A stretch of 64,000 nt of DNA, from assembly GCA_937922085.1 (NCBI GenBank), contig CAKZVD010000003.1:1-64000 (forward strand), written 5' to 3'. The notes beneath the pieces are model-generated. The model was not told where the DNA came from. It worked only from the letters and a program-made list of their open reading frames with translations, and did no database searches. Position numbers and translations under genes: made by a program. Positions 20,760 to 28,724 of this stretch are shown here, in pieces. The stretch comes from an uncultured Tenacibaculum sp. (GTDB lineage: Bacteria > Bacteroidota > Bacteroidia > Flavobacteriales > Flavobacteriaceae). Each line of letters begins with the position of its first letter. The first letter of the stretch is position 1.

Positions 20760-21718
20760 TAGAGGTCAGTAGTTATTTACTTATTAATTCTGCTTGATAA
20801 ATTTTATTTCCTACAACCATTTTCGTAATCAAGTTGTTGAATATTGTTGCCTTGCTCTGTGATCGATTTATTCTAAAACAGAATTCGTTAAAATATCTAT
20901 TAAGATTATCATCACTAACCCAAGAATAGGTAGTTCTTATCCAAGATTTAACTTGATGTATCATTGTGTGTAGCGCTTTGAAGTTTAATCCTTTATTGCT
21001 TTCTATTTGAGTTATATTAAATGCTTTTGCAATTGGCCTATAACCTCTCCATTTGTCTGTTGTTACTTTAGCTTCTCGGCTGATGTGATTTACAAAGATG
21101 TACTGTAGTGATTGAGCTGAAAAATCCTCTATTTTCATAGCGTACATCCTTTTAACTTTTCCGTTCTTACTAAGCTGAATGGCTGTTACTGCTTTCTTTT
21201 TCTTGCTATGATAACTTCTACCTGTCTTACCTGCATCTTTACCGCCAAGAACAAATTCATCAACGTGTACCTCTCCATCCATAGGGTTATTTCCACTGGA
21301 AGACATCGCTTCTCTTACTTTGAGCATAAATAATCTAGCTGTTTTTTCGGTTACCCCATAACGAACTCCCATATAACTTGCTGACAAGCTTTTTGTAGAT
21401 GTAGCCATTTCGAAACAAATAAAAAATGCTTTTCGAACACCAAATTTAACCTTATGAAAAAGCGTTTCTGCTGTGGCTGATTCTGTGTGCCTACAAATAT
21501 TACATTGTCTAGAAAAATCAGCACGAGATTGACAAGCTGTATGATTACATCTAGTGCATTTAAACTCTGTTGCTGATTTTATTTGAGCTAAATATTCCTT
21601 ACAATCTTCATCTGTTTTGAACCGATCAGAGAACTCTAGAAGATTTTGACCCTTGAAAACATCCATATTTTAATATCTTTATTAGTCATTAAGATACGCA
21701 TTTAAATACTGACCTCTA
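20760..21718. mobile_element. IS1595-type insertion sequence
   Basis: Terminal inverted repeats of 12 bp (TAGAGGTCAGTA on the left, its complement on the right) bracket a single transposase gene, total about 959 bp. No 8-bp target duplication is visible (left flank GTAAAATTT, right flank TCTATTTAA), which suggests a deletion next to the element or recombination between copies. Confidence 0.85.
20773..21666 (-). CDS. IS1595-family (ISXO2-like) transposase
   Basis: 297 residues, intact. An N-terminal zinc ribbon (CTRCNHTAC...CNICRHTES) precedes the DDE-type catalytic domain: DEFVLGGK carries the first Asp, TDKWRGY the second, and the last acidic or Asn residue lies in the RYFNEFCFRINR region, as is normal for ISXO2-like enzymes. 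The intact frame and inverted repeats suggest a recent or active element. It is read away from the metallophosphoesterase that it has truncated. Confidence 0.93.
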   Translation of the reverse strand: MDVFKGQNLLEFSDRFKTDEDCKEYLAQIKSATEFKCTRCNHTACQSRADFSRQCNICRHTESATAETLFHKVKFGVRKAFFICFEMATSTKSLSASYMGVRYGVTEKTARLFMLKVREAMSSSGNNPMDGEVHVDEFVLGGKDAGKTGRSYHSKKKKAVTAIQLSKNGKVKRMYAMKIEDFSAQSLQYIFVNHISREAKVTTDKWRGYRPIAKAFNITQIESNKGLNFKALHTMIHQVKSWIRTTYSWVSDDNLNRYFNEFCFRINRSQSKATIFNNLITKMVVGNKIYQAELISK

Positions 21719-22818: not shown

Positions 22819-23010
22819 ATGTTTAAAAACATTTCAAAATTAGGTAAAAACCTAAACAAATCTCAACAGCAAGAAATCAATGGAGGATTTAAGAAGGGAC
22901 CTATAGGAACTGAATGTGGAGGAGATGGTTCATTTATATTTCAAGATGAAATAAAAGTGTGTTGTTTCCAACCAGGTAAATTTTTAGGACAAGGAACTTA
23001 TATTTGTTAA
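22819..23010 (+). CDS. GG-leader peptide precursor, Cys-containing core
   Basis: 63 residues. The leader MFKNISKLGKNLNKSQQQEINGG ends in a double glycine, the cleavage mark of C39-type peptidase exporters, and is followed by a 40-residue core with four Cys, two adjacent (VCCF). The leader is nearly the same as those of the five peptides at 31.3-32.6 kb, so it belongs to the same family. These peptides are handled as bacteriocin-like or modified peptides in this phylum. No exporter or modifying enzyme is in the window. A terminator follows. Confidence 0.82.
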   Translation: MFKNISKLGKNLNKSQQQEINGGFKKGPIGTECGGDGSFIFQDEIKVCCFQPGKFLGQGTYIC

Positions 23011-23626: not shown

Positions 23627-23705
23627 TCATTAAAAATTTTAAATATGAGACCAAAATATTTAATATTTTGTAGAAAATAAGTAATATTGCAGTATTAATT
23701 AAGAA

Positions 23706-23813
23706 ATGAAATTACAAAACATACATAGAAACACACAATTCGAACTTTGTTCGTATGATTTTCGCCCGAGTATTTTGCGAAAAGGAGGCTATGTATATCT
23801 AATTCAACGATGA
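23706..23813 (+). CDS. Leader peptide 1: codon roll-call of the tRNA array
   Basis: A 35-codon ORF missed by the track. Codons 11-22 (23736-23771) encode QFELCSYDFRPS: CAA, TTC, GAA, CTT, TGT, TCG, TAT, GAT, TTT, CGC, CCG, AGT. These call every one of the 11 tRNA species of the downstream array (Gln, Phe, Glu, Leu-TAG, Cys, Ser-TGA, Tyr, Asp, Arg-ACG, Pro-TGG, Ser-GCT), with only Phe used twice. CTT, CGC, CCG and TCG are unusual choices here, where Leu is mostly TTA and Arg mostly AGA. Twelve nt later, GGAGGCT (23784-23790) can pair with AGCGTCC of the next terminator with one mismatch. I infer an attenuation leader; the peptide itself probably has no other task. Confidence 0.75.
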   Translation: MKLQNIHRNTQFELCSYDFRPSILRKGGYVYLIQR

Positions 23814-23847: not shown

Positions 23848-23880
23848 AAGCGTCCAATTTAAAAATTGGACGCTTTTTTT
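23848..23880 (+). terminator. Terminator 1 (attenuator) after leader peptide 1
   Basis: AAGCGTCCAATT pairs with AATTGGACGCTT, followed by a T run. It starts 34 nt after the leader stop. Its 5' arm can alternatively pair with GGAGGCT inside the leader ORF. Confidence 0.9.
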
Positions 23881-24199
23881 ATGAAAAAAAATAAAAAATG
23901 TTTAGTTAAGAAAAGTAAATAAATAAAGAAGTAAAAAACAAGAAACAATTGAGAGACAGCCTTTTGTATAAAATGTTTATAATCTGTAAAATACGGACAG
24001 GGAGCCTAATGCTTTTATTTTAGTTAAACAATTGATTGTCAGTAAATTAATATTTATTTTTTCTTGTGTAATTAAAAAAGGTGTCCCATCTTTGCATCGT
24101 CGAAACGTAACAAAATTATTGTTTTGATATTCTGAAAAATAAATATGTATAAATTCAGAAACATTTAAAAAAGTAAAATAATCATAATTAGTAAATAAA
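23881..24199. other. Spacer between the two leader modules
   Basis: AT-rich, with no tRNA and no plus-strand ORF I can support. The 84-aa minus-strand track ORF here has no recognisable features and overlaps the second leader. A weak -7-like CATCTTTG occurs near 24089. Whether the second leader has its own promoter cannot be told. Confidence 0.5.
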
Positions 24200-24328
24200 A
24201 TGAAACAGTATTCACAACATATAACACCCAACTATTTTGAGTTTCGCTCGCCGAGTAGCCTTTATGTACTATGTAGTGATGAAGATTTTAAATATAATAA
24301 GGAGATATACTATGATGATATAAGTTAA
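24200..24328 (+). CDS. Leader peptide 2: codon roll-call directly before the tRNA array
   Basis: A 42-codon ORF missed by the track. Codons 12-30 (24233-24289) read YFEFRSPSSLYVLCSDEDF; every one except Val is decoded by an array tRNA, and ten of the eleven species occur (TAT, TTT, GAG, CGC, TCG, CCG, AGT/AGC, CTT/CTA, TGT, GAT). Gln appears at codons 3 and 6. The rare codons CGC, TCG and CCG are used as in leader 1. Eleven nt after the block, AAGGAGAT (24299-24306) matches the 3' arm of the terminator and can pair with its 5' arm (ATCTCC). So a ribosome stalled in the block would leave the antiterminator free. The first tRNA starts 75 nt after the stop. Confidence 0.78.
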   Translation: MKQYSQHITPNYFEFRSPSSLYVLCSDEDFKYNKEIYYDDIS

Positions 24329-24351
24329 TTATATACAATATAATAAAAATG

Positions 24352-24388
24352 AAAAGCATCTCCATACAAAAAAGGAGATGCTTTTTTT
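24352..24388 (+). terminator. Terminator 2 (attenuator) immediately before the tRNA array
   Basis: AAAAGCATCTCC pairs with GGAGATGCTTTT around a 10-nt loop, followed by seven T. It sits 15 bp ahead of the first tRNA gene, so array transcription must read through it. An identical GGAGAT upstream in the leader ORF offers a competing antiterminator pairing. Confidence 0.92.
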
Positions 24389-24403: not shown

Positions 24404-24491
24404 GGAAGAACAAGCCAATTTGGTGGTGGCCACGGTTTTGAAAACCGTTCGGAGTTAACGACTCGTGTGGGTTCGAATCCCACTTCTTCCG
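24404..24491 (+). tRNA. tRNA-Ser (TGA)
   Basis: Acceptor GGAAGAA/TTCTTCC, anticodon loop TTTGAAA between ACGGT/ACCGT, long variable arm, T-arm GTGGG-TTCGAAT-CCCAC, discriminator G followed by CA. First gene of the array. Confidence 0.95.
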
Positions 24492-24496
24492 CAATA

Positions 24497-24584
24497 GGAG
24501 AATAGGTAAAATATTGGTTTGTTACGCTTAACTGCTAATTAAGTCCATGTAAAAATGGTGAAGGTTCGATTCCTTTGTTCTCCG
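24497..24584 (+). tRNA. tRNA-Ser (GCT)
   Basis: Acceptor GGAGAAT/GTTCTCC, anticodon loop CTGCTAA between CTTAA/TTAAG, class II variable arm, discriminator G then CA. Confidence 0.93.
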
Positions 24585-24589
24585 CAAAA

Positions 24590-24662
24590 GACAAGATGGC
24601 TGAAAGGTTAAGGCAACGGACTGCAAATCCGTTTTTTATGAGTTCGAATCTCATTCTTGTCT
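24590..24662 (+). tRNA. tRNA-Cys (GCA)
   Basis: Acceptor GACAAGA/TCTTGTC, anticodon loop CTGCAAA between ACGGA/TCCGT, discriminator T (usual for Cys), then CA. Confidence 0.95.
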
Positions 24663-24720
24663 CAATGATTGATATAATTTCAAATGAATTTGAAAATTAT
24701 GTAAATCCAATTTGTGATTA

Positions 24721-24754
24721 AATGAGAAGGCGTAGCAATCTCATTCTTGTTTCA
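24721..24754 (+). repeat. Fragment of a tRNA-Cys 3' end
   Basis: AATCTCATTCTTGTTTCA repeats the T-arm and acceptor end of the preceding tRNA-Cys with one change. It lacks the rest of the molecule and is probably the scar of a lost tRNA copy. Confidence 0.6.
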
Positions 24755-24794
24755 AGAAAATAAGATCATTGACATACTGGAAAATTTAAAAAAT

Positions 24795-24866
24795 GCGCTG
24801 TTCGTATAATGGTTAGTACATCTGACTTTCTATCAGAAAATACGAGTTCAATTCTCTTACAGCGTA
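24795..24866 (+). tRNA. tRNA-Glu (TTC), copy 1
   Basis: Acceptor GCGCTGT/ACAGCGT with G1-T72, anticodon loop CTTTCTA between TCTGA/TCAGA, discriminator A then CA. The T-stem has one C-T mismatch (TACGAG/CTCTTA) that the two later copies lack, so this copy may be weakened. Confidence 0.85.
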
Positions 24867-24885
24867 CAAATTTATAATTAAAAAT

Positions 24886-24968
24886 GGAAGTGTTGAGCAA
24901 TTGGTTGGCTCGACAGACTGTAAATCTGTTCTCTTCGGAGCTTGTAGGTTCAAATCCTACCACTTCCA
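24886..24968 (+). tRNA. tRNA-Tyr (GTA), copy 1
   Basis: Acceptor GGAAGTG/CACTTCC, anticodon loop CTGTAAA, class II variable arm with a TTCG loop, T-loop TTCAAAT, discriminator A then CA. Confidence 0.95.
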
Positions 24969-24973
24969 CAAAA

Positions 24974-25046
24974 AGTACTGTAGCACAATGGCTAGTGTAT
25001 CCGACTGTCTCTCGGAAAGTTGCGGGTTCGAATCCCGTCAGTACTG
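24974..25046 (+). tRNA. tRNA-Asp (GTC), copy 1
   Basis: Acceptor AGTACTG/CAGTACT, anticodon loop CTGTCTC between TCCGA/TCGGA, T-arm GCGGG-TTCGAAT-CCCGT, discriminator G then CA. Starting with A instead of the usual G1 is unusual for Asp. Confidence 0.92.
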
Positions 25047-25052
25047 CAAAGA

Positions 25053-25112
25053 AGTACTGATGGAATGAGAAGTTTATCTCGAGCAAAGTCGAGAGGAATC
25101 CCGTCAGTACTG
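25053..25112 (+). pseudogene. 60-nt Asp-derived tRNA-like gene, copy 1
   Basis: It keeps the acceptor AGTACTG/CAGTACT, the ATCCCGT end and the G-CA terminus of tRNA-Asp, but the D and anticodon arms are replaced by a segment containing CTCGA-GCAAAG-TCGAG, a small hairpin. No anticodon is present. An identical copy exists at 25678. It is either a decayed tRNA or a tRNA mimic. Confidence 0.7.
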
Positions 25113-25117
25113 CAAAA

Positions 25118-25190
25118 CTGGGAAGATAACGATTGGGTGTTTACCTGCTTTGGATGCAGGAGGTTGTAGGTTCGAGTCCTACTTCTCAGA
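25118..25190 (+). tRNA. tRNA-Pro (TGG), copy 1
   Basis: Acceptor CTGGGAA/TTCTCAG, anticodon loop TTTGGAT between CCTGC/GCAGG, T-loop TTCGAGT, discriminator A then CA. Confidence 0.93.
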
Positions 25191-25197
25191 CAAAAAT

Positions 25198-25267
25198 GCG
25201 CTGTTAGTAACGGTTAGTACATCTGACTTTCTATCAGAAAATAGGAGTTCGATTCTCCTACAGAGTA
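25198..25267 (+). tRNA. tRNA-Glu (TTC), copy 2
   Basis: Same anticodon arm as copy 1, regular T-stem TAGGAG/CTCCTA. The D-loop is 2 nt shorter (GTTAGTAACGG against GTTAGTATAACGG in copy 3) and the acceptor has a G-A mismatch, so function is doubtful. Confidence 0.78.
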
Positions 25268-25277
25268 CAAATAAAAT

Positions 25278-25351
25278 GCAGGAATGGCGGAATTGGCATA
25301 CGCGTCTGATTTAGAATCAGAATTTTGAGAGTTCGAGTCTCTCTTCCTGTA
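25278..25351 (+). tRNA. tRNA-Leu (TAG) with short variable loop, copy 1
   Basis: Acceptor GCAGGAA/TTCCTGT, anticodon loop TTTAGAA between TCTGA/TCAGA, D-arm GGCGGAATTGGCATACGC typical of Leu. The variable region is only about 5 nt instead of the long class II arm, giving 74 nt in all. Discriminator A then CA. Confidence 0.88.
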
Positions 25352-25391
25352 CAAGTAAAAGATTTAGAATTTATTTCTTTCTCTAGAAGAT

Positions 25392-25463
25392 AGACCTGTG
25401 ATGTAATGGTTAGCATACAAGATTTTGATTCTTGTTGTATAGGTTCAAATCCTGTCAGGTTTA
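25392..25463 (+). tRNA. tRNA-Gln (TTG), copy 1
   Basis: Acceptor AGACCTG/CAGGTTT, anticodon loop TTTTGAT between CAAGA/TCTTG, T-loop TTCAAAT, discriminator A then CA. Confidence 0.92.
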
Positions 25464-25510
25464 CAAATGATGATTTTAGTTTATTTAAAATAAAAGGAAG
25501 TCATTTAAAT

Positions 25511-25593
25511 GGAAGTGTTGAGCAATTGGTTGGCTCGACAGACTGTAAATCTGTTCTCTTCGGAGCTTGTAGGTTCGAATCCTACCACTTCCA
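25511..25593 (+). tRNA. tRNA-Tyr (GTA), copy 2
   Basis: Same as copy 1 except T-loop TTCGAAT. Discriminator A then CA. Confidence 0.95.
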
Positions 25594-25598
25594 CAAAA

Positions 25599-25671
25599 AG
25601 TACTGTAGCACAATGGCTAGTGTATCCGACTGTCTATCGGAAAGTTGCGGGTTCGAATCCCGTCAGTACTG
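25599..25671 (+). tRNA. tRNA-Asp (GTC), copy 2
   Basis: Same as copy 1 with anticodon loop CTGTCTA. Discriminator G then CA. Confidence 0.92.
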
Positions 25672-25677
25672 CAAAGA

Positions 25678-25737
25678 AGTACTGATGGAATGAGAAGTTT
25701 ATCTCGAGCAAAGTCGAGAGGAATCCCGTCAGTACTG
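25678..25737 (+). pseudogene. 60-nt Asp-derived tRNA-like gene, copy 2
   Basis: Identical to the copy at 25053: intact Asp acceptor stem and G-CA end, no anticodon arm, internal CTCGA/TCGAG hairpin. Confidence 0.7.
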
Positions 25738-25742
25738 CAAAA

Positions 25743-25815
25743 CTGGGAAGATAACGATTGGATGTTTACCTGCTTTGGATGCAGGAGGTTGTAGGTTCAA
25801 GTCCTACTTCTCAGA
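25743..25815 (+). tRNA. tRNA-Pro (TGG), copy 2
   Basis: Differs from copy 1 in the D-loop (GGATG for GGGTG) and T-loop (TTCAAGT). Discriminator A then CA. Confidence 0.93.
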
Positions 25816-25822
25816 CAAAAAT

Positions 25823-25894
25823 GCGCTGTTAGTATAACGGTTAGTACATCTGACTTTCTATCAGAAAATAGGAGCTCGATTCTCCTATAGAGTA
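25823..25894 (+). tRNA. tRNA-Glu (TTC), copy 3
   Basis: Full-length D-loop, anticodon loop CTTTCTA, T-loop CTCGATT, acceptor GCGCTGT/ATAGAGT with one G-A mismatch. Discriminator A then CA. Confidence 0.82.
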
Positions 25895-25905
25895 CAAAAT
25901 TAAAT

Positions 25906-25979
25906 GCGGGAATGGCGGAATTGGCATACGCGTCTGATTTAGAATCAGAATTTTGAGAGTTCAAATCTCTCTTCCCGTA
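25906..25979 (+). tRNA. tRNA-Leu (TAG) with short variable loop, copy 2
   Basis: Acceptor GCGGGAA/TTCCCGT. Against copy 1 the third pair is G-C instead of A-T, a compensated change that shows the stem is kept by selection. The same ~5-nt variable loop is present. Confidence 0.88.
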
Positions 25980-26018
25980 CAAATAAAGAATTAGAATTTA
26001 TTTCTTTCTCTAGAAGAT

Positions 26019-26090
26019 AGACCTGTGATGTAATGGTTAGCATACAAGATTTTGATTCTTGTTGTATAGGTTCGAATCCTGTCAGGTTTA
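26019..26090 (+). tRNA. tRNA-Gln (TTG), copy 2
   Basis: As copy 1 with T-loop TTCGAAT. Discriminator A then CA. Confidence 0.92.
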
Positions 26091-26138
26091 CAAAATGTTG
26101 ATTTTAATTTATTTAAAATAAAAGGAAGTTATCTAAAC

Positions 26139-26211
26139 GGAACAATAGCAAAGTTGGTCAATGCATCGGATTGAAGCTCCGAAGATACAGGTTCAATTCC
26201 TGTTTGTTCCA
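26139..26211 (+). tRNA. tRNA-Phe (GAA)
   Basis: Acceptor GGAACAA/TTGTTCC, anticodon loop TTGAAGC between TCGGA/TCCGA, T-arm ACAGG-TTCAATT-CCTGT, discriminator A then CA. It lies 27 bp before the ykuK-like gene. Confidence 0.93.
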
Positions 26212-26238
26212 CAAAAAAAATGTTAAAAAGAATGAATT

Positions 26239-26718
26239 ATGAAAAAAGAAAAATGGAAAAGTTTTAGTGGTAAAGTATTTGAAAAACCTATAATTAATGT
26301 TATTGAAAATGCAATTATAAAAGAACAAAAGGCAGGATACCGTTTAAAAATTTATGTGGGTTCAGATTCACAAGCTTATAAAACCCATGTAGAATATGCT
26401 ACAGTTATTGTAGTATTAAGAGAAGGAAAAGGAGGATTTATGTTTGTTAGAAATGATAAAGGCACAAAACAAATAGGTATTAAAGAACGTATGCTTAAAG
26501 AAGTAACGATGTCTGTTGAAGTTGCCTATGAAATTTGTAACGTATTAGATAAATATGATGTTGATTTAGAGGTACACGCAGATATTAATACAGATCCTAA
26601 ATTTGAATCTAATATAGCACTGAAAGATGCTATGGGATATATTTTAGGTATGGGATTTAAATTTAAAGCGAAGCCTTATGCATTTGCAAGTTCTTCTTGT
26701 GCAGATAGTATGGTTTAA
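26239..26718 (+). CDS. RNase H-like YkuK family protein (DUF458)
   Basis: 159 residues, the usual family length. The conserved acidic and other residues of this RNase H-fold family are visible: YVGSDSQAY (about 39-47), LEVHADINTDPKFESN (about 110-125) and a C-terminal KPYAFASSSCADSMV. The fold predicts a metal-dependent nuclease or nucleic-acid binder; no activity is established that I can cite. It is embedded in the tRNA array, 27 bp after tRNA-Phe and 49 bp before tRNA-Arg, so it is almost certainly part of the same transcription unit and likely acts on these RNAs. Confidence 0.88.
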   Translation: MKKEKWKSFSGKVFEKPIINVIENAIIKEQKAGYRLKIYVGSDSQAYKTHVEYATVIVVLREGKGGFMFVRNDKGTKQIGIKERMLKEVTMSVEVAYEICNVLDKYDVDLEVHADINTDPKFESNIALKDAMGYILGMGFKFKAKPYAFASSSCADSMV

Positions 26719-26767: not shown

Positions 26768-26840
26768 AGGAATATAGTTTAATTGGATAAAATTTTAGAG
26801 TACGATTCTAAAGATGCGGGTTCGAGTCTTGCTATTCCTA
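26768..26840 (+). tRNA. tRNA-Arg (ACG)
   Basis: Acceptor AGGAATA/TATTCCT, anticodon loop GTACGAT between TTAGA/TCTAA, T-arm GCGGG-TTCGAGT-CTTGC, discriminator A then CA. The G at position 32 is unusual. It reads CGT/CGC/CGA if A34 is deaminated, including the CGC used in both leader peptides. Confidence 0.85.
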
Positions 26841-27065
26841 CAAAATTTAAAATATTTTTTATTACGCAAAAAGAATGCGTAATACCATAGAACATTTGTA
26901 GTGTTATTATGAAAAAGAAATAACGTCGAAGGGAGAATTGCAAAGAAAAAGAGAAAGTGGCCTCATCATAACGGGGAGTATGGTGAGGTAAATTAAAAAA
27001 GTTCATAAACATATTAAGGAGTAATAGTTTTATAATAAAAGACTATCTCTCTATAATTAAAAATA

Positions 27066-27623: not shown

Positions 27624-28724
27624 ATGAAAAAAGTAAGAATTAACACAGGAAAAGTTGGATTAGTTTTCAAAAAGGGAGAATATCAAAAAGTACTAAATAA
27701 GGGAACTTATTGGTTAGGTTTTAATCAAGAGGTGGTTATCTATGATATTACACAAGAATTTCATTCTAATGTAGCTATTGAAATTTTATTGGAAGATAAA
27801 GAGTTAGTAGAGATGCTAGAAATTGTTCAAGTAAAAGATAATGAATTGGTTTTAGTATATGAAAATGAAAACTTTAAAAGAGTATTACAAGCAGGAAGGT
27901 ATATCTTTTGGAAAGGTTTAATAAACAGAACATTTCAAAATATAGATACTAGTAAAATTTACATTACAGAAAATTTAGATAAATCATTGTTTAGTAACTA
28001 CGAATTAAATAAATACATACGTTTATTTGAAGTTGCTACTTATGAAAAAGCGATTTTATTAGTAGATGATGTACATACAAAAACTTTAACAGGAGGAACC
28101 TATCGTTTTTGGAGAAATGACACGTCTATTAAAATATCAAAAGCAGATACAAGACAGTTACAATTAGAAATTGGAGGTCAAGAATTATTAACAAAAGATA
28201 AAGCAACAGTAAGAATCAATTTTTATACACAATATAAAGTTGTTAATATAGAAAAAGCTTTATTAGATAATAAAGAGTATGAAAAACAATTATACCTTTT
28301 AATGCAACTTGCTTTAAGAACGTATGTTGGAGGGTATAGTTTAGATGAATTGTTAGAAAAGAAAGAAGATATTGCAATTGCTGTATTTGATGAAGTATCT
28401 AAAAAGACAGAAAATTTAGGAGTAACTGTTCTTAATTGTGGGATTAGAGATGTAATTTTAACTGGTGATATGAAAGAAATTATGAACCAGGTTTTGATTG
28501 CACAAAAAAAAGCACAAGCAAATATTATTACTAGGCGAGAGGAAACGGCTTCTACTAGAAGTTTATTAAATACAGCTAAACTAATGGAAGGTAATGAAAT
28601 GTTGTTCAAACTAAAAGAAATGGAATATGTAGAAAAAATTGCAGATAAAATTGGAGAAATCACCCTTTCAGGAAATGGAAATATGGTGAAAGAGTTAAAA
28701 GGAATTTTTACTGTTAATAAATAA
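27624..28724 (+). CDS. Slipin family (SPFH/band 7) protein
   Basis: 366 residues. An N-terminal part of about 125 residues with two repeats of a K.G.YW/RYIFWKG pattern precedes an SPFH/band-7 domain (about 135-300; TLTGGTYRFWRN, KDKATVRINFYTQYKV, GGYSLDELL) and a helical C-terminus (AQKKAQANIITRREETASTRSLLNTAKLMEGNEMLFKLKEMEYVEKIA). There is no transmembrane helix, so it is a soluble or peripheral oligomer. Slipins of this type often sit beside RNA-repair genes such as rtcB in bacteria (from general knowledge). Here it follows the tRNA array on the same strand, which agrees with a role in RNA stress. Confidence 0.88.
   Translation: MKKVRINTGKVGLVFKKGEYQKVLNKGTYWLGFNQEVVIYDITQEFHSNVAIEILLEDKELVEMLEIVQVKDNELVLVYENENFKRVLQAGRYIFWKGLINRTFQNIDTSKIYITENLDKSLFSNYELNKYIRLFEVATYEKAILLVDDVHTKTLTGGTYRFWRNDTSIKISKADTRQLQLEIGGQELLTKDKATVRINFYTQYKVVNIEKALLDNKEYEKQLYLLMQLALRTYVGGYSLDELLEKKEDIAIAVFDEVSKKTENLGVTVLNCGIRDVILTGDMKEIMNQVLIAQKKAQANIITRREETASTRSLLNTAKLMEGNEMLFKLKEMEYVEKIADKIGEITLSGNGNMVKELKGIFTVNK

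Follow-up and report, generated by a model that had tools for sequence, protein, structure and literature searches.

We found that the segment AAGGAGAT, located at 24299–24306 within a short open reading frame (leader 2), is quite likely the antiterminator (region 2) through which ribosome-mediated transcription attenuation would control an accessory tRNA array, with the RNaseH-like and slipin genes beyond it probably under the control of leader 2 as well. Positions are those of the window, by which we mean the whole 64,000-nt stretch at its full length. Judged by its relatives, the window very likely comes from a Tenacibaculum. The locus contains a leader ORF, an intrinsic terminator, a leader segment that competes for the 5′ arm of this terminator, sensor codons spaced from that segment by a ribosome footprint, and codons related to the product of the operon, all of which suggest an attenuator. 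The comparisons that carry this reading concern the specificity of the pairing, the coding constraint on the leader, the match between leader residues and tRNA isotypes, and the accessory nature of the array.

Two units stand in series 5′ of the array, each comprising a short ORF and, behind it, an intrinsic terminator, and the features of both units, like the genes they precede, lie on the + strand. Immediately 5′ of leader 1 is a putative promoter, recognized from the sequence by its −7 element TAATATTG (23682–23689; Bacteroidota TAnnTTTG type), which is also found shortly 5′ of other leader-1 ORFs. Leader 1, MKLQNIHRNTQFELCSYDFRPSILRKGGYVYLIQR (23706–23813), has homologues in L048 and L049, and contains a candidate antiterminator (23784–23789) in which GGAGGC faces GCGTCC, a weak pairing with one mismatch; terminator 1, formed by AAGCGTCCAATT and AATTGGACGCTT with a U run, follows at 23848–23880. 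A second putative promoter (TTG ... CATCTTTG; 24064–24094) was assigned from the sequence, with the consensus judged by eye, in the interval between terminator 1 and leader 2. A conserved block at 23940–24095, between terminator 1 and promoter 2 (TTGATTNTCAGTAAAATAA ... TTGTGTAATT), is common to the window, L047, L048, L049, and L050, occurs at tRNA loci and rtcB loci alike, and may be a site for a regulator or part of a promoter. Leader 2, MKQYSQHITPNYFEFRSPSSLYVLCSDEDFKYNKEIYYDDIS (24200–24328; 129 nt), likewise has homologues in L048 and L049, and its codons 2–30 (24203–24289) form a "roll-call" zone that includes the array isotypes S, C, E, Y, D, P, L, Q, F, and R. Terminator 2 occupies 24351–24388, with the 5′ arm ATCTCC at 24358–24363.

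The array (24404–26212) holds about 17 tRNA genes in the order Ser, (degenerate tRNA), Cys, Glu, Tyr, Asp, Pro, Glu, Leu, Gln, Tyr, Asp, Pro, Glu, Leu, Gln, and Phe. It is followed by an RNaseH-like (PF04308) ORF (26239–26718), by an additional tRNA-Arg(acg) that is the final tRNA of the array (26768–26841), and by a slipin/SPFH (Band_7) protein (27624–28724), which serves as the locus marker in relatives. The first tRNA (24404–24490) scores above the tRNA-Sec model threshold and is called Ser(TGA) by ARAGORN; it is likely a long-arm tRNA-Ser. The degenerate tRNA-like gene (24497–24584) reaches 40 bits with the Rfam tRNA model and is missed by ARAGORN, and the Tyr-Asp-Pro-Glu-Leu-Gln block is duplicated in tandem at 24886–26091. 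Elsewhere, a short ORF at 22819–23010 with a double-glycine leader (MFKNISKLGKNLNKSQQQEINGG...) resembles a bacteriocin-type peptide, and an ORF at 20773–21666 resembles, by eye, an IS1595-type transposase.

At leader 2, AAGGAGAT exactly matches 8 bases of the terminator 3′ arm AAGGAGATGC (24372–24381); the preliminary description had placed it correctly and understated the likeness by calling the two almost the same. Its observation that GGAGAT (24301–24306) can pair with ATCTCC was confirmed, as these form a 6-bp helix of about −9 kcal/mol. This helix is among the weaker ones of the compared units, and when leader 2 was dinucleotide-shuffled, equally good pairing arose in 11% of trials (p about 0.11), so that the single site in the window does not beat chance and proves nothing alone. 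That a purine-rich terminator 3′ arm simply happens to recur in a 129-nt leader would agree with this single-locus figure, but we consider it extremely unlikely given the behavior of related units, which we describe below.

A slipin profile search yielded 80 loci, at which ARAGORN was used to find tRNA arrays upstream of slipin. Array and slipin occur together in about 40 Bacteroidota loci, mostly from Flavobacteriaceae, with a few from deeper Bacteroidota (L136, L137). Most arrays with sufficient flanking DNA have a leader ORF and a terminator on their 5′ side, the intrinsic terminator lying between the leader and the regulated genes. We then compared the pairing of each leader with its own and with swapped terminator arms in 40 tabulated units, which are not all independent and comprise about a dozen distinct pairing cores. 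In the leader-by-arm matrix, pairing with the own arm was favored by 3.86 kcal/mol after row and column effects were removed (diagonal interaction −3.86), while permuted arms gave 0.00 (SD 0.39), an excess of 10 SD (p ≤ 0.0002, the lowest value attainable with 5000 permutations). For 36 of the 40 units, the own 5′ arm was a better partner of the leader than were at least three quarters of the other arms; the remaining four (rnl_1, Aq_t1b, Aq_t1c, and 136_t1) showed no clear own-arm preference. Both partners vary between families, as in GGAGAT/ATCTCC, GGGTGTCT/AGACGCCC, GCTTCG/CGAAGC, and ACTTCG/CGAAGT (leader segment/terminator 5′ arm), and further in GTTTCG/CGAAAC, GGATGT/GCATCC, GGAAGG/CCTTCC, and GCGGGGC/GCCCCGC. 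The leader segments keep complementarity to their own terminator arm, with clear compensatory changes among them.

Similar leader–terminator units precede rtcB-prfH operons (RtcB and PrfH being identified) and operons of Rnl2-family ligases. As a fresh test, we examined newly sampled rtcB loci in 16 genomes that represent different genera, nearly all of them outside the genera compared above. Ten of these loci held 17 units, of which 15 paired at p < 0.05, and such a unit was absent from six of the 16 sampled loci. Compensatory variants were again seen, namely AGACGCT/AGCGTCT (L140), GAACGCT/AGCGTTC (L144), ACTTCG/CGAAGT (L140), and TCTTCG/CGAAGA (L148), and the variant pairs lie at a near-constant distance from the ORF end. 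In the window's own genome, both units accompany a copy of rtcB (L142). The own-arm specificity in 40 units, together with 15 of 17 newly sampled units, indicates that the pairing beats chance, unlike the single site in the window, and coincidence is thereby disfavored for the family.

Several further features of these loci were observed. Tandem attenuators appear 5′ of rtcB-prfH operons in Flavobacteriaceae (L046–L051, L055, L138–L148, and L153), and their antiterminators are stronger, for example GGACGC with GCGTCC and GCTTCG with CGAAGC. On contig C119 of the window genome (L056:7574–9297), the gene for an Rnl2-family RNA ligase is preceded by a leader pair, and a remnant resembling a tRNA T-arm separates this gene from the second terminator.

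The same variation bears on another possible role for AAGGAGAT, as the Shine-Dalgarno sequence of an out-of-frame mini-ORF (AAGGAGATATACT-ATG ATG ATA TAA) acting via reinitiation or ribosome holding. A purine-rich, Shine-Dalgarno-like core followed by ATG is indeed present in Tenacibaculum-type units, in Kordia (L092), and in the second Rnl2 leader; however, Aquimarina leader 2, Winogradskyella, rtcB, and several other units have GGTGTCT, GCTTCG, or GGACGC at this position, which are not Shine-Dalgarno sites, and complementarity to the terminator arm persists in units that lack such a core. We therefore regard this role as quite unlikely.

Folding with the downstream edge of the ribosome placed 15 nt from the P-site predicted that, before the 3′ arm is made, the antiterminator helix forms with a probability of about 0.95 (lowest 0.8) when the P-site is at or before codon 29, and with a probability of 0 from codon 30 onward. 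This agrees with the earlier suggestion that a ribosome stalled in most of the roll-call block would leave AAGGAGAT free. The gap between this block and AAGGAGAT, previously given as 11 nt, is in fact 9 nt when counted from the last codon, TTT (24287–24289). Sensor codons 2–30 thus sit 5′ of the antiterminator at ribosome-footprint distance, with the cut-off between P-site codons 29 and 30, and the stall zone expected to induce shares its end with the roll-call block. At equilibrium, the terminator hairpin (−17.9) outcompetes the antiterminator (about −8.6), its advantage with the 3′ arm in place being about 9–13 kcal/mol, so antitermination would have to be kinetic. In folds of the untranslated window leader 2, the antiterminator was also free, and no "1:2" helix protecting it was seen. 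It follows that an untranslated leader should read through as well, and that the off state would depend on translation. The geometry of a classical attenuator, which the preliminary description had proposed, is thus borne out in its own-arm pairing, which is kept in relatives, and in its stall geometry, but not in a protecting "1:2" hairpin. Overall, the related leaders and the folding support interpreting AAGGAGAT as an antiterminator. By eye, GAAG(C/T) directly 5′ of the ATG could provide a 1:2 helix in Winogradskyella and in the rtcB-2 class.

We found that ORF lengths are constant within leader families, except for one codon in Kordia, and that dN/dS is 0.2–0.5 in the larger families, the small families consisting of two or three close sequences. 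For leader 2, all 42 codons are kept in L048 and L049, with a dN/dS of about 0.5. The kept lengths and these ratios suggest that the leaders are probably translated. As for the array, every isotype is also encoded elsewhere in the genome of a complete relative (G002), where the array tRNAs are 55–72% identical to the other copies and the anticodon stems have changed too. They look like an accessory, divergent tRNA set.

We next asked how the residues of the leader adjoining the array relate to the array isotypes, using the 35 loci that have five or more tRNAs. Of 340 array isotypes, just 10 were missing from the leader, compared with 81 expected for random peptides matched in length and protein composition (minimum 60 over 2000 simulations), and other reading frames of the leader DNA missed 96–98. 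Leaders were complete at 27 of the 35 loci, against 3.2 expected. When each of the 13 leader families was reduced to a single representative, 6 of 135 isotypes were missing vs. 33.7 expected (minimum 19 in 20000), and a test in which amino acids were relabeled with array relatedness preserved gave p = 0.0003. In the window, all ten isotypes occur within codons 2–30 of leader 2 (chance 0.011) and within codons 2–22 of leader 1 (chance 0.0011). Ala, Gly, and Thr tRNAs are carried by 1, 2, and 2 of 37 arrays, and Val is uncommon (7); in array leaders, Ala/Gly/Thr/Val residues stand at 0.24–0.43 of background and Cys is 4.8-fold enriched. Asp shows no enrichment in leaders, though arrays commonly carry Asp tRNA. 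Matching at the level of isoacceptors (Leu CTN/TTR, Arg CGN/AGR, Ser TCN/AGY) was rejected: only Leu CTN was raised (55% vs. 36%), and this did not track which isoacceptor is present. A [QLIK]HI-like motif around codons 6–8 (CAT at about codon 7) recurs in most leaders, across very different families.

Direct sensing of tRNA by a protein or a T-box-like RNA, with the ORF incidental, would have parallels in TrcR and RtcR, the protein regulators that run other tRNA-damage operons. Against this stand the coding constraint on the ORF and its isotype content, and the leader matches no Rfam family, T-box included, which also disposes of a known riboswitch as a candidate. We deem direct sensing very unlikely. 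Somewhat harder to set aside, though still doubtful, is that the leader acts as a general sensor of translation stress (antibiotic, damaged ribosome, or starvation), in which the roll-call only maximizes the chance of stalling and carries no isotype logic. Tandem units of the same design lie 5′ of rtcB-prfH and Rnl2-ligase operons that have no tRNA array, and the Anabaena tRNA operon reacts to translation inhibitors generally (PMC10272220). However, array leaders avoid Ala/Gly/Thr/Val, the isotypes that arrays lack, and rtcB leaders do so less: with rows pooled, these residues make up 8% of array leaders (50/599), 16% of rtcB leaders (83/535), and 24% of proteins, the two leader classes differing at p = 0.0002 in a Fisher test uncorrected for relatedness. 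The amino-acid-relabeling result likewise speaks against a sensor blind to isotype.

We propose, in favor of isotype-linked attenuation, that a ribosome would translate leader 2 while RNA polymerase transcribes it. If all roll-call codons are read promptly, the ribosome would cover AAGGAGAT as the 5′ arm emerges, the terminator would form, and the tRNA genes would remain off. Scarcity of any tRNA listed in codons 2–30, be it from cleavage by an anticodon nuclease, from damage, or from a lack of charging, would stall the ribosome upstream; AAGGAGAT would then capture ATCTCC before the 3′ arm exists, and polymerase would enter the array, which carries a divergent copy of each isotype named in the roll-call zone. 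Leader 1 and terminator 1 may apply the same logic further upstream. In this scheme we infer the cotranscriptional kinetics, the physiological trigger, and the use of array tRNAs as replacements; a role in replacing tRNAs cleaved by anticodon nucleases would fit the presence of RNA-repair genes under like control. With a stall on any named codon turning on the spare tRNAs, the cell would replace those tRNAs it has run short of.

More broadly, we are inclined, with modest confidence, to see here a Bacteroidota family of "roll-call" attenuators, in which the leader names the array isotypes and the loss of any one tRNA so named turns on replacement copies of all, and which, through the same tandem design on rtcB-prfH and Rnl2-ligase operons, would form an attenuation-controlled RNA-damage regulon. 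Attenuators of amino-acid operons sense one or few amino acids. One leader here appears to poll many tRNAs together and to control spare copies of them, which would explain how a silent tRNA array is controlled without a protein regulator. Bacteria may in this way sense tRNA-cutting toxins via stalled ribosomes and respond by making replacement tRNAs and RNA ligases. The code is testable, in that the leader peptide would predict the tRNAs a cell expects to lose.

With trp/his-type attenuators, these units share a short leader ORF, an intrinsic terminator, an antiterminator that pairs with the terminator 5′ arm, and control by stall position. They differ in that the regulated genes are tRNAs rather than genes of amino-acid biosynthesis, that the sensor block covers roughly ten to fifteen isotypes rather than repeating one codon, and that the window leader has no protecting 1:2 helix; since the antiterminator is free without a ribosome, the leader would work like an attenuator, but not a trp-type one in the narrow sense. 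Leader-peptide attenuators have been reported for amino-acid operons of Flavobacterium psychrophilum, and the same taxonomic group and mechanism class make transcription–translation attenuation plausible here; in the part of that report we draw on, the operons are biosynthetic and a tRNA array is not mentioned (PMC9723704). In Anabaena, the trn operon comprises an accessory array of 26 tRNAs that is silent until translation stress induces it, and its regulon also includes rtcB and a slipin gene, but control there lies with the DNA-binding repressor TrcR, reported as essentially restricted to cyanobacteria, rather than with a leader peptide (PMC10272220). The rtcBA operon, whose RtcR control responds to damaged tRNAs, and the RtcB2-PrfH operon (PMC7790460, PMC9223846) are likewise sets of RNA-repair genes, and the rtcB-prfH operons of the bacteria studied here bear tandem attenuators of the same kind; RtcR, however, is a transcriptional activator, and attenuation is unmentioned in these two papers. 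Our search of the literature, which covered open-licence papers, turned up no description of a tRNA array under a leader-peptide attenuator. As read from these sequences, the mechanism would be classical attenuation, applied to an accessory tRNA array.
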